Source: Allobosea sp. UNC402CLCol (lineage in GTDB: Bacteria > Pseudomonadota > Alphaproteobacteria > Rhizobiales > Beijerinckiaceae). Taken from it: DNA of 64,000 nucleotides. Below are positions 34,135-38,902 of the stretch, piece by piece. A program made the translations under genes and the position numbers. The stretch is from assembly GCF_000745475.1 (NCBI RefSeq), contig NZ_JQJJ01000009.1, positions 744,001-808,000 of the forward strand, written 5' to 3'. How positions within the stretch are numbered: the first letter of the stretch is position 1; the number at the start of each line of letters is the position of its first letter. The notes beneath the pieces are model-generated. The model did not search any database and was not told the origin of the DNA. It was given only the letters and a program-made list of their open reading frames with translations.

Positions 34135-34268
34135 GGGCTCTGGCTCGACCGGAAGGTGGAAAGCCAAGCCATACAGGGGCTTGCCGACCCGGTCCATGGC
34201 GCGGCCGGCAGAGCCGCTCCGCTATTTCGAGAAGCCTTTGTTAACGGACGCCCGCAATAAGCTTGCCC

Positions 34269-36053
34269 ATGACGCAGGGTGAGATCGGGGGGCTCATGAC
34301 GGGCAGGATTCGGCGCTGGTTCGGCGCTGGTAAAATCGCCGGATACGACGCGCTTCCCGTCGCGCCTGCCGCTGAAGTCGAAAAGCCAGTCTTCGTGCCG
34401 GACGGGGAAACCGTTTCGGCGGCCGTCGACGATATCGAGAGCGAGATCCTGTCCGCGATGGGCAAGCTGACCCGCGAGCTCGGCGAGGCCGGGCAGCTCT
34501 CGGCCGATTTCGAACGCGATTCCCGGGCGATCCTTGCAAGCGCCGGCGGCATGCGCCTGGCGGTGGTTTCGGCCAATGAGAACGCCTCGGCGCTCGCGGC
34601 CGCGAGCCAGCAGGTTTCTGATGCGGCGGAGGAGGTCGATCTCTCGCTCGCCAATGTGCGCAGCAAGCTCGACGCCGCCATGTCGCGGGCCAGCGAGGCG
34701 ACGATCATGCTCGACGGGCTGGCGGTCGCGACCGGGGAGATTCGCGGCATCGTCGATTCGATCGCGGATATCGCGCGCCAGACCAATCTGCTGGCATTGA
34801 ACGCGGCCATCGAGGCGGCGCGTGCCGGTGAGGCCGGGCGCGGCTTCGGCGTCGTCGCCCATGAGGTGAAGTCGCTCTCGGTCGAGGTCAGCCAGGCGGT
34901 CGAGCATATCCGCACGCGGGTCGACCGCCTGACGCAGGCCGCGCAGGGCTCGACCGAGATCGTCAACGACGCGCTCCAGATCGTCCGTGAGGTCAACCCG
35001 ATCGTAGGTCTGATCGGCAATGCCTCGCAGCAGCAGGCGACGACGACCGCCGAGCTCTCCCGCAATGCGCGCGAGACGGCCTTGTTCGTCGATGGCGTGG
35101 CCAGGCAGGCCGACGAGATCGACCGCATCGCCCATGTGACGGTGGCGGATAGCGAGCGGGTGCGTCACGCCACCGAGCGCGGCGGCCGCCTCGTCGGCAA
35201 CATGGTGCGCCGGTTCAAGCCGACCCTGCGGCACGCCGCCTTCGCCGATCGGCGCCGCCATGACCGGTTTCCGGCGGCGCGCCGCGCCTGGCTCTCGGTC
35301 GGCGACGTCGACATCGCCGGGGAGGTCATCGATCTCGGCCGGGGCGGGGCCCTGCTGGCCGATGCGCCGGAGGCGCGTCACTGGTCGGGCGCATCCGGCA
35401 GCGTCACGATCGAGGGGCTGCCGCCGCTGCCGTGCCGCATGACGGGGGTGAGCGACAACGGGCTCCACATCGCCTTCGCGCCCGAGGCCGCCGCCGGCAA
35501 CGACGCGCTGGCGCAGACCATCGAGGAGATCGAGCGCTCCTACCGGCCTCTGATCGAGCGCGCCCAGGACTTTGCCCGGCAGGTCGGCGCGGCGATGGAA
35601 ACCGCGCTGGATCGCGGCCTGTTGACCGAGGACGACCTGTTCCAGGCCAGCTATACCGCCGTGGCGGACAGCGAGCCGCGCCAGTATCTGAGCCCGAGCC
35701 TGACCGCGCTGGAAACCGTGCTCCCGCCGGTTCTCGCGCAAATCCTCGCCGACGATGCGCGCCTGTCCTTCGCCGTCGCCGGCGACCGCAACGGCTATGT
35801 GCCGGTCCACAATGCCGCCCATTCCTTGCCGCCGCGCCGGGGCGAGCCGGGCTGGAACGCGACCTATGCCCGCAACCGGCGCATCTATGACGACCGCGTC
35901 GGCATCAGTTTCGGCCGTTCGGTGCGCCCCTTCCTCGTGCAGCGCTCGCTGCAGGATCTCGGCCGCGGGCTGGAAGCGTTCAGCGAGATCGGCGCGCCCA
36001 TCAGGGTGCGCGGCCGCCACTGGGGCGGGGTCAGGACGGCCTACCGGCTCTGA
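34269..36053 (+). CDS. Soluble chemoreceptor (MCP) with PilZ domain and C-terminal MCP-associated domain
   Basis: A 594-residue protein without a membrane helix or HAMP. Residues about 40-320 form an MCP signalling coiled coil with hairpin tip IARQTNLLALNAAIEAARAG (around 165-190). Residues about 325-410 are a PilZ domain, starting RRRHDRFPAARRAWL, with the RxxxR c-di-GMP motif and a later DLGRGGALL matching D/N-x-S-x-x-G with glycine in place of serine. Residues 415-594 form a domain with GYVPVHN, RNRRIYDDRVG and PIRVRGRHWGGVRTAYRL, seen at the C-terminus of some receptors. It could link c-di-GMP to chemotaxis signalling in the cytoplasm. Stop codons of this gene and the next, convergent one directly abut. 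Confidence 0.83.
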   Translation: MTQGEIGGLMTGRIRRWFGAGKIAGYDALPVAPAAEVEKPVFVPDGETVSAAVDDIESEILSAMGKLTRELGEAGQLSADFERDSRAILASAGGMRLAVVSANENASALAAASQQVSDAAEEVDLSLANVRSKLDAAMSRASEATIMLDGLAVATGEIRGIVDSIADIARQTNLLALNAAIEAARAGEAGRGFGVVAHEVKSLSVEVSQAVEHIRTRVDRLTQAAQGSTEIVNDALQIVREVNPIVGLIGNASQQQATTTAELSRNARETALFVDGVARQADEIDRIAHVTVADSERVRHATERGGRLVGNMVRRFKPTLRHAAFADRRRHDRFPAARRAWLSVGDVDIAGEVIDLGRGGALLADAPEARHWSGASGSVTIEGLPPLPCRMTGVSDNGLHIAFAPEAAAGNDALAQTIEEIERSYRPLIERAQDFARQVGAAMETALDRGLLTEDDLFQASYTAVADSEPRQYLSPSLTALETVLPPVLAQILADDARLSFAVAGDRNGYVPVHNAAHSLPPRRGEPGWNATYARNRRIYDDRVGISFGRSVRPFLVQRSLQDLGRGLEAFSEIGAPIRVRGRHWGGVRTAYRL

Positions 36054-36818
36054 CTACAGCCGGTCCCAGCTCACGGCGACGTTCATCTTCCGGAAGGTCT
36101 GCTGCCAGAGCGTGGCCGCCTGTTCGAGGCGCTGGGGCTCGTAGAGGCCCTGCACCTGATGCACGCTGAGCGCCCAGCTCGCGGCACCCGAGCTCTGCCA
36201 GACCTTCGCCAGGAGCTGCCGCAGCTTTTCGGGATCGCGCGCGCCTGCGCCATTGCCGAAGACGGTGTATTGGCCCGAGTTCTGCAGCATGTCGGAGACC
36301 AGCACGAGCTTGCGGTCGCCGTTCTCGACCCGGTTCTCCCGCCGCGCCACGACATCGCCGATCGCCTCGACGATCGGCGACTGGTTGCCCTTTGCCGGCG
36401 TGGTCAGCACCTTCAGCGCGTCGTCGAGCGGACGGCCGAACTTCTCGACCCATTTGACGTATTCGCGGCGCGGGTTGCCGATCAGCTCGCTCGCGGTCTT
36501 GCCGGGATTGCAGAGCGAGATCAGCGCCGGGAAGCCGGGCTCGAAGACGTCGTTGAAGACATAGATCGAGAGCATCCGGTCGGCCGGCAATTCATCGCCG
36601 ATCTGCTTGACCAGCGTCTTGAGGCGTCCGGCCTGGACCTCGCTCCACGGGTCGGTCTTGTCGACGAGGATCAGCGTCTGCCCCACCGGGCCGGTCTTGG
36701 GGCAGAGCGTCTCCTGGTCGCGCGGCGGCCCGCGCAGCAGGGAGGGGGCGGCGAAGAAGCCGACGAGGGCGACGCCGGCGAGGAGGGAGGCGACGATCGC
36801 CCAGTTCTCGGTCTTCAT
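36054..36818 (-). CDS. Uncharacterised membrane-anchored protein, VWA-like
   Basis: A 254-residue protein with one N-terminal helix (about 7-28) followed by a periplasmic or cytoplasmic domain. The strand-loop LILVDKTDPWSEVQAGRL (about 48-65) resembles the beginning of a von Willebrand A fold with the usual D-x-S-x-S replaced by D-K-T-D. Later RKLVLVSDMLQNSGQY resembles VWA strand 4 with its conserved aspartate. It is the last gene of a three-gene minus-strand module (38902 to 36054), ten bases after the coiled-coil gene. No function can be named. Confidence 0.75.
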   Translation of the reverse strand: MKTENWAIVASLLAGVALVGFFAAPSLLRGPPRDQETLCPKTGPVGQTLILVDKTDPWSEVQAGRLKTLVKQIGDELPADRMLSIYVFNDVFEPGFPALISLCNPGKTASELIGNPRREYVKWVEKFGRPLDDALKVLTTPAKGNQSPIVEAIGDVVARRENRVENGDRKLVLVSDMLQNSGQYTVFGNGAGARDPEKLRQLLAKVWQSSGAASWALSVHQVQGLYEPQRLEQAATLWQQTFRKMNVAVSWDRL

Positions 36819-36828
36819 GCGTCGGCCT

Positions 36829-38301
36829 CTAGCGCTGCATGGCGGCGAATTCCTCGGCCGCCTGCTTCTGCGCCGCCTCGTCGCGCTCGAAGGCTTCGCG
36901 CCCGGCCTGTGCGGCGCGCAGCTTGACCTGCTCGACCTCGCCGGCGAGGTCGATGCCGCGCAGGAGCACGAGCCGGTCCTTCAGCGTCGCTTCGATCAGG
37001 GCCGGCATCGATCCGAGCTGCCGCTCGAAATCCTCGATCTGTCGGCGCGCGGCGGTGTATTCCGGCAATTCGCCGGGCTGGTCGATCTCGGCCAAGTTGA
37101 GCGATTGGGAGAAATAGGCCGGCGGCAGGTCGGTCCGAACGCGCAGATTGGCCTCGCGATATTGCATCATCGCCGCGTCCTTGGCGGCGCGAAGCTGCCC
37201 GAGGCGGGAGATATGGAGGTCGCGCGCCTTCTCGGCCCTGGCCTTGAAGGATTGCAGCTTGCCGAGCTCGTCGCGGCATTCCTCGCGGAAGCCGTCGACC
37301 TGCGTCCTGAGCGCCTCCATCTCCGGCAGCAACTCGACATCGAGCCGGCGCCTTTCTTCCTCGACCGCGCTCCAGCGCTGGCGCCAGCGCTTATAGGCGG
37401 CGGCATGGCCCGGATAGCTGCCGAAGGCGGAATAGCCCTTGGTCGCCGAGACGAAGGCGACGATGCAGCCGATGATGACGAGCGCGACCGATTTGAGGTC
37501 GTAGATCGCGAACGGGTTCTCCAGCATGCGCGGCATCACCTGGAAGGAGCGCGCATCGGGATTGGCGATCAGCATCTCGCGGTAATGGCCGACCGCGAGG
37601 TTGAACAGCACGATCAGCGCGATCATCCCCGCATAGGCCGGCAGCGCCCAGAACAGATGCGAGCTCTTCACATGCTGGCAGTAGCGCGCCGGTCCCACCC
37701 CCATGAAGAAGCCGAGCGCGATGTTGAGCGCCGAGATGATGACCGCCGTCGCCGCGCCGCCGACGAGGCCGAAATCGCTGGCCTCGGCGAAGAAATTGCC
37801 GTTGAGCAGGCTCTCGATCACCAGCGGCACGACCAGGAAGAACAGGATGAACTGCCATTTGTCGAGCTTGGGGTCGGCGCGGCGCTTGTTCTCGTAATTG
37901 AAGAAGGCGTATTCGCGCTTGGCCCTGAGCGCGTCGTAGACGCGCTGCTCCAGCTCGCTGCCATGCTTGTTCAGCATCGCGCGCATCGCAGCCTCGATGC
38001 TGCGCACGCGGCCCTCGAAGCGCTGCTGGGTGAACAATTCGCGCCGGTTCGCGATCTCGGCCTGGAGCGCGTTGAGGCTCGCCGCCGCCTCCTGCCGGAT
38101 CGCGGTGAAATGCTCGCGGGCCCGCGCGACCAGCGTCTGCTCGGTCTGCGACAGCATCGTCGCATGGGCCGGCGGCTGGTTCTCGACCGCGTCGCTGGCG
38201 CCGTGATGGCCGGCCTTCACCGATTCCGCGAGGTGATGCGCCGTGATCGGCGCGATGGCCTCGCGCCGACGGGGCTCGCCGCTGCCGTTCTCATTCGCCA
38301 T
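36829..38301 (-). CDS. Uncharacterised membrane protein with two coiled-coil arms
   Basis: A 490-residue protein. Residues about 50-140 are a charged helical arm, about 148-290 hold four membrane helices (FILFFLVVPLVIESLL, TAVIISALNIALGFF, YAGMIALIVLFNLAV and ALVIIGCIVAFVSA), and about 310-485 form a second long Glu/Arg/Leu-rich coiled coil. I do not recognise the family. The plan (coil, four helices, coil) suggests a membrane scaffold whose coils face the cytoplasm. Its start overlaps the stop of the upstream gene by 11 bases, and the VWA-like gene follows ten bases after. Confidence 0.78.
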   Translation of the reverse strand: MANENGSGEPRRREAIAPITAHHLAESVKAGHHGASDAVENQPPAHATMLSQTEQTLVARAREHFTAIRQEAAASLNALQAEIANRRELFTQQRFEGRVRSIEAAMRAMLNKHGSELEQRVYDALRAKREYAFFNYENKRRADPKLDKWQFILFFLVVPLVIESLLNGNFFAEASDFGLVGGAATAVIISALNIALGFFMGVGPARYCQHVKSSHLFWALPAYAGMIALIVLFNLAVGHYREMLIANPDARSFQVMPRMLENPFAIYDLKSVALVIIGCIVAFVSATKGYSAFGSYPGHAAAYKRWRQRWSAVEEERRRLDVELLPEMEALRTQVDGFREECRDELGKLQSFKARAEKARDLHISRLGQLRAAKDAAMMQYREANLRVRTDLPPAYFSQSLNLAEIDQPGELPEYTAARRQIEDFERQLGSMPALIEATLKDRLVLLRGIDLAGEVEQVKLRAAQAGREAFERDEAAQKQAAEEFAAMQR

Positions 38302-38902
38302 GGGCGGACCGCATCAGGAAATGGCGGGCATCGACGACATCCACCCAGAAGTCACGGAAGCCGGGATAGGCCGGCCGCAGATAGGCGCGCTCGAACCAGA
38401 GCGTCAGCACGACGAGCCCGGCTGCCCCCAGCGCCGGCAGGATCGCGCCGGCGATGGCGGCGGGGCTCGTTTCCCAGAGCCGCCAGCCCAGCCCGAGCAG
38501 GGCAAAGGCGCTGGCGACGACGAGGAGCGCGAGCATGCAATGCCGGCCGGTGTCGTAGGCGAGCTGCAGCCCGGCGGTCATCAGCGTGATCGCGAAGGCG
38601 GCGGCAAGCTCGATCACGGCGAGCCCGACAACGAGGCCGGCGAGCGTGGCGCCGATTCCAGTCGGGGATGCCGGCGAGAGCACCGCATGGACGCTGCGAC
38701 CGGTCGCCCAGCCGAGATGGAGGCAGAAGAGCAGGATCGCGGCGATGAGGATGGCGACGAGTGGCGTCTCGCGCCGCAGCCGCGCCGCCATGGTCGCCAG
38801 TCGCGCGGCATGCGTCTGGCATGCGGCTTCGTAAAGCGCGCTTCCGGCCGCCCGCAGCCGACCCATCATTGTCCTGAGTATCGAACGCAACCGACCCGCC
38901 AT
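38291..38902 (-). CDS. Uncharacterised small membrane protein, first gene of the module
   Basis: A 203-residue protein with a basic amphipathic N-terminus (about 1-45) and four predicted helices (around LVAILIAAILLFCLHLGW, LAGLVVGLAVIELAAAFAI, MLALLVVASAFALLGLGW and ILPALGAAGLVVLTLWF). The short tail ends DARHFLMRSAHGE. Family unknown. ATG 38902 is chosen over an in-frame TTG at 38938. It overlaps the coiled-coil gene by 11 bases, so the two are probably made together. Confidence 0.75.
   Translation of the reverse strand: MAGRLRSILRTMMGRLRAAGSALYEAACQTHAARLATMAARLRRETPLVAILIAAILLFCLHLGWATGRSVHAVLSPASPTGIGATLAGLVVGLAVIELAAAFAITLMTAGLQLAYDTGRHCMLALLVVASAFALLGLGWRLWETSPAAIAGAILPALGAAGLVVLTLWFERAYLRPAYPGFRDFWVDVVDARHFLMRSAHGE

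Follow-up and report, generated by a model that had tools for sequence, protein, structure and literature searches.

A P0002–P0001 membrane gene pair of Alphaproteobacteria, linked to a putative motor in most relatives found and motorless in Bosea

Three adjoining genes and their conserved residues

The window analysed here, a 64,000-nucleotide stretch of the Allobosea sp. UNC402CLCol genome, holds three adjoining minus-strand genes, P0003, P0002 and P0001 (Table 1), the first two overlapping by 11 bases and the last two standing 10 bases apart, as the tight packing noted in the preliminary description had it. Hydropathy assigns four transmembrane (TM) segments each to P0003 and P0002 and one to P0001. 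The gene moaA runs in the same direction and lies 60 bases ahead of P0003; beyond the other end, at 34263–36053, is a chemoreceptor gene; Pfam finds its PilZ region only weakly and leaves a further stretch of about 190 C-terminal residues uncovered. Against three Bosea copies, the module gives dN/dS values of 0.11–0.46. The nearest public module loci are those of Bosea (93% and less), and the window's genome holds a single copy of each core gene, P0002 and P0001.

Table 1. Features of the module: window coordinates, strand and description
P0003	38291..38902	(-)	203-aa small membrane protein, four TM segments
P0002	36829..38301	(-)	490-aa coil / four-TM / coil protein; core component
P0002 four-TM region (residues 150-287)	37441..37854	(-)	polar residues in TM segments
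P0001	36054..36818	(-)	254-aa; one TM anchor, then VWA domain, probably periplasmic; core component
P0001 C39 codon	36702..36704	(-)	invariant cysteine, 75/75; candidate periplasmic disulfide
P0001 D53 codon	36660..36662	(-)	first residue of MIDAS-like D-x-[TS]-D; 75/75 sequences
P0001 C103 codon	36510..36512	(-)	second invariant cysteine, 75/75
P0001 S147 codon	36378..36380	(-)	candidate third-loop MIDAS-like residue; S147-P148 75/75; putative placement
P0001 D176 codon (SD motif)	36291..36293	(-)	candidate last MIDAS-like residue; 75/75; putative placement

The initial statement that none of the three matches a nameable system is borne out. Pfam, NCBIfam and PHROGs scans of P0001–P0003 return no family, with weak matches only (best 0.0032), and a PADLOC scan returns no Zorya family, its sole weak match being LeoBC on P0002 (2.6e-5). 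A phage search and a search of viral contigs with P0002 patterns alone both yield no match, and among the papers listed by literature searches none is on this operon.

For P0001, the VWA-like strands seen at the outset are supported by a structure model with the alpha/beta VWA fold. The classic MIDAS motif is D-x-S-x-S, T, D. P0001 differs from integrin I and other VWA domains in carrying D-x-[TS]-D plus S and SD: D53, T/S55, S147 (assigned to the site by order and secondary structure) and D176 are kept, D56 is invariant, and the fifth position is P57 in 67 of 75 sequences and not Ser. Metal binding at this modified MIDAS-like motif is predicted. The TM helix contains zero polar residues at positions 9–25 in 75 of 75 sequences. 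Motor-type relatives of P0001 (see below) have an Arg-rich N-terminus ahead of the TM segment, which suggests that the VWA head lies outside the membrane; in the predicted topology the domain is probably periplasmic.

P0002 has its four TM segments between coil-like parts, with E163, N167, N193 and N234 within TM segments and H239 and R241 directly past TM3. Across 33 diverse sequences, E163 and R241 are kept in 33, N167, N193 and H239 in 32 each, and N234 in 31. All six are invariant in a 76-sequence set, gathered by patterns that themselves span two of the conserved stretches; four of the 33 diverse sequences came from the same scan. Such polar residues inside TM segments may point to a channel, and P0002 might itself conduct ions or transport, its TM Glu and Asn forming a proton or ion path that P0001 gates from outside, so that in Bosea the module would do a motor's job alone. 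We consider this unlikely: P0002 has no Pfam match to MotA/ExbB/TolQ (PF01618), and hhalign gives its alignment A9 0.0% against a TolQ set and 0.8% against ZorA, with 0.1% and 0.3% for alignments A9 and A2 against the ZorA-like set introduced below. PDB sequence searches with alignments A1 and A2 return coil or chance matches.

P0003 is found in 35 of 101 genomes searched and in one of 41 genera, the window's own, and a profile comparison of loci places it at no locus outside the Bosea clade. We also considered P0003 as a shrunken motor subunit, which is not shown, since hhalign scores its family at most 0.2% against the ZorA-like set, P0002, TolQ and an alphaproteobacterial MotA-like set, and 4.1% when a broader P0002 set, TM part only, is the target.

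The gene pair and its motor-type relatives

P0002 matches 21 of 297 genomes of the order and P0001 matches 20, all among the same genomes; in the genome missing from the P0001 count (G083), a VWA ORF recognised at profile level overlaps the end of P0002. The two genes are directly adjacent in 20 of the 21, and at L048 a 304-aa ORF stands between them. Within the genus, P0002 occurs in 38 of 67 genomes, P0001 in 39 and both in 37. G304 and G355 have P0001 without P0002, the G304 copy lying near a contig start. The pair is not strictly obligate, since G307 keeps a P0002 (45%; L263, 1410–2858, reverse complement) between moaA and a chemoreceptor gene, without P0003 or P0001. Each of the two queries also matches 24 plasmid records, of which six regions were read. 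Among 398 genomes of the phylum, a VWA profile at E 1e-6 finds 17, of which six are weak matches from outside the class; of the class-level loci, L295–L297 have all four genes described next, and L291, L292 and L294 have the pair alone. The P0002–P0001 neighbourhood is kept across Alphaproteobacteria. Of the three-gene module as first proposed, this two-gene core stands, and P0003 is confined to the window's genus and near clade.

Outside Bosea, the usual partners are a ZorA-like gene and a ZorB/OmpA-like gene, which follow P0002 and P0001 in that order at 74 loci. These comprise 12 of 20 order-level relatives, six of six plasmid regions and 56 of 57 non-Bosea loci from a genome-contig scan of the best 80 of 112 relatives, and at least five records occur twice among them. 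The four genes of Rhizobium johnstonii pRL11 lie at L056, 11869–16280. We call the third gene ZorA-like because its TM hairpin matches ZorA by hhalign (24.9% against a single ZorA; 63%, E 6.9e-5, against three), with no Pfam MotA_ExbB match in any of 18 members; with the same ZorA set as target, profiles of P0003, P0002 and TolQ each fall below 1%. The third gene scores no higher than 0.5% with TolQ, MotA or the alphaproteobacterial MotA-like set, and that MotA-like set itself matches ZorA at 91%. An assignment to MotA_ExbB was accordingly rejected, as neither Pfam nor hhalign to TolQ or MotA found it. The third gene's PADLOC ZorA matches are mostly coil, as are most matches of a PDB search with alignment A3, ZorA among them; a PDB search with the TM part of A3 returns nothing.

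The fourth gene scores 92.8% against a ZorB by hhalign and 0.3% against the MotB of the window's genome. PADLOC ZorB2 matches it at 5.7e-25 for a Paracoccus member and at about 1e-5 to 1e-4 for two others, and in the PDB it finds MotB-like, MotS and PomB chains at about 1e-6. Its TM segment carries a Glu (E28) in 17 of 17 sequences, which we infer to correspond to the ion-carrying Asp of ZorB. By sequence, the two genes are ZorAB-like and not proven Zorya members, and their motor activity is predicted.

Many motor-type loci also carry a gene resembling staphylococcal nuclease (SNase). At 27 of the 74 loci, in several lineages, one lies no more than 3 kb from the cassette, whichever the side or strand (60 bits or more against one query, among loci that include the best 80 of 112 scan relatives); this distance limit is partly forced, as the sequence of many loci extends just 4 kb or so to one side. 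Of 18 loci with mostly wider flanks (L036–L047, L056–L061), nine have the gene, within about 1.2 kb. SNase is the commonest neighbour family, with 11 of 143 ORFs (the nearest up to five neighbours at 29 motor loci, two of which, L045 and L166, are the same record) and the next families five each, counts made with no control set. None was seen at 32 motorless loci. Read by eye, the SNase-like genes of L056 (16281–17024) and L295 have a signal-peptide-like start.

These neighbours, together with the ZorA/ZorB-like genes and the 24 plasmid records, would fit an anti-phage defence of Zorya type, as would strong defence-family matches beside a few motor loci (RmrA, PD-Lambda-1, a type II methyltransferase and mad3). 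We judge that identity quite improbable for the module. No PADLOC family occurs in more than three of the 143 neighbouring ORFs, again with no control set; the window copy was found with no motor, nuclease or known Zorya effector, and the module keeps one chromosomal place in Bosea.

A farther version may exist outside the class. The six weak VWA matches (L285–L290; same phylum, other class) lie in the order OmpA-domain lipoprotein, with the lipobox called by eye, multi-TM protein and VWA protein. By hhalign against the alphaproteobacterial relatives, the VWA proteins score 97–98% and the OmpA domain 96%, and the multi-TM protein only 10–25% against P0002, with controls up to 4%. The shared gene order, similar spacing and a Glu in the first TM segment that matches make the multi-TM protein perhaps a P0002 relative, a kinship that at the sequence level is suggestive only.

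The motorless Bosea branch

P0003, P0002 and P0001 are all present at 23 of 23 Bosea-clade loci. Profiles find no motor gene of ZorA/ZorB type at these loci and no such ORF was seen around the window's module; a ZorA-like query against the window's own genome gives one match (E 0.0146). That genome has five PF01618 places, none near the module, which by eye are flagellar-type and PomAB-like pairs and one order-wide MotA-like/OmpA pair. A MotA-like and OmpA-domain pair is seen on contig C8 (L227, 6003–8175); eight MotA-like proteins of this type, each from a different genome of the order, match one another, and their profile scores 91% against ZorA and 38% against TolQ.

On a tree of 38 selected concatenated P0002/P0001 pairs, the 26 motor loci form one group (support 98/90) with the 12 motorless loci outside it, and motor presence changes once, compared with a mean of 10.4 when shuffled. 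The tree is rooted at its midpoint and L048, L050 and L130 are long branches, so the deep rooting is unsure and one motor gain and one motor loss are not separable.

The module's place on the chromosome raises two further readings. In 22 of the 23 Bosea-clade loci moaA is followed by P0003, the remaining contig ending short of moaA, and a search of the window found no terminator-like site between the two, which could make the module an accessory of molybdenum-cofactor synthesis. This seems very improbable, since the relatives read outside Bosea sit in other neighbourhoods and moaA is kept in genus genomes that lack the module: it was found in 17 of 18 genomes searched and, of 16 such loci, 15 hold no module part and one holds P0002 alone. 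We also considered whether another system has taken the module's place after moaA and set this aside, the 15 of 16 loci holding other genes that look ordinary by eye. In module-lacking genomes this interval (L257–L271) is variable, with CDP-diglyceride-synthase-like, solute-binding and Gfo/Idh-like genes by eye.

The other reading joins the module to the neighbouring chemoreceptor-PilZ gene in signalling, for which their stop-to-stop contact, noted in the first description, and the frequency of this neighbour in Bosea speak. The link is not supported: the chemoreceptor gene lies on the opposite strand, the modules of L109 and L112 have no adjoining chemoreceptor, and one is present at nine of 15 module-lacking genus loci. 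The neighbourhood is probably incidental, and a joint signalling role would be most surprising.

A proposed envelope relay core and its relation to known systems

Our preferred reading, held tentatively and at somewhat less than an even chance, is that P0002 and P0001 make up an inner-membrane relay core that is motor-linked in most relatives found and motorless in Bosea. The two proteins would form a complex in the inner membrane. P0002 would contribute a pair of cytoplasmic coils and, linking them, four TM helices with conserved polar residues, and P0001 a plain hydrophobic helix as anchor with a VWA head in the periplasm, probably disulfide-closed and carrying the modified metal-binding motif. 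Between periplasm and cytoplasm, the core may relay a state such as binding, tension or damage to the envelope. Most of the relatives found would have it in one operon with the ZorA-like and ZorB-like proteins, a putative peptidoglycan-gripping, ion-driven motor often encoded beside the SNase-like gene, and this motor could pull on or sense peptidoglycan via the core. The Bosea core would work without a motor, as a branch made of relay, VWA head and its own small four-TM protein, inherited with the chromosome. A shared cell-envelope machine is likely but unproven, given that the relatives' core sits in an operon with a motor-resembling pair. For the Bosea module, envelope upkeep or sensing is likelier than mobile defence because the module is motorless and chromosomally inherited.

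The nearest known systems share parts of this arrangement. ZorC and ZorD are known Zorya effectors. In the accessible part of the Zorya paper, ZorE, ZorF and ZorG are also named as effectors, ZorB D24 is described as crucial for defence, and neither 'VWA' nor 'von Willebrand' appears (PMC11890865). Motor-type relatives resemble Zorya in carrying ZorA-like and ZorB/OmpA-like genes in the same order, whereas their ZorB-like TM segment has Glu E28 where ZorB has Asp D24 (PMC11890865), a presumed correspondence, and the window copy has no adjoining ZorA or ZorB gene and no known effector.

For vWA proteins that are tethered to the inner membrane and coupled to TolQ(R)-like motors, two kinds have recently been proposed, an SHLS type with a His in the TM helix and a transpore-helix type with an Asp, and the accessible text reports no deletion phenotype (PMC12204202). 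P0001 is similar in that its vWA domain comes after a TM helix at the N-terminus, and motor-like genes are linked to it in relatives. As far as the accessible text defines the two kinds, however, it belongs to neither, because its TM helix, free of polar residues, has no His or Asp; its partners are ZorAB-like genes and P0002, and the window copy has no adjoining motor gene.

A broader reading, possible though we would not lean on it, is that P0002 and the VWA protein represent an envelope core that is old in proteobacteria and has been combined with various partners that bind peptidoglycan: a ZorAB-like Glu motor, often with an exported nuclease, in rhizobia and rhodobacters, an OmpA lipoprotein in other classes, and none in Bosea. 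If true, the ZorAB-like motor and nuclease would be a new system of rhizobia and rhodobacters. Should the motor-type cassette with its nuclease neighbour work, it would add another Zorya-like kind, one with Glu in place of the crucial Asp of ZorB. The same core with a motor-like pair in rhizobia and rhodobacters and without one in Bosea offers a natural comparison of what a motor adds.
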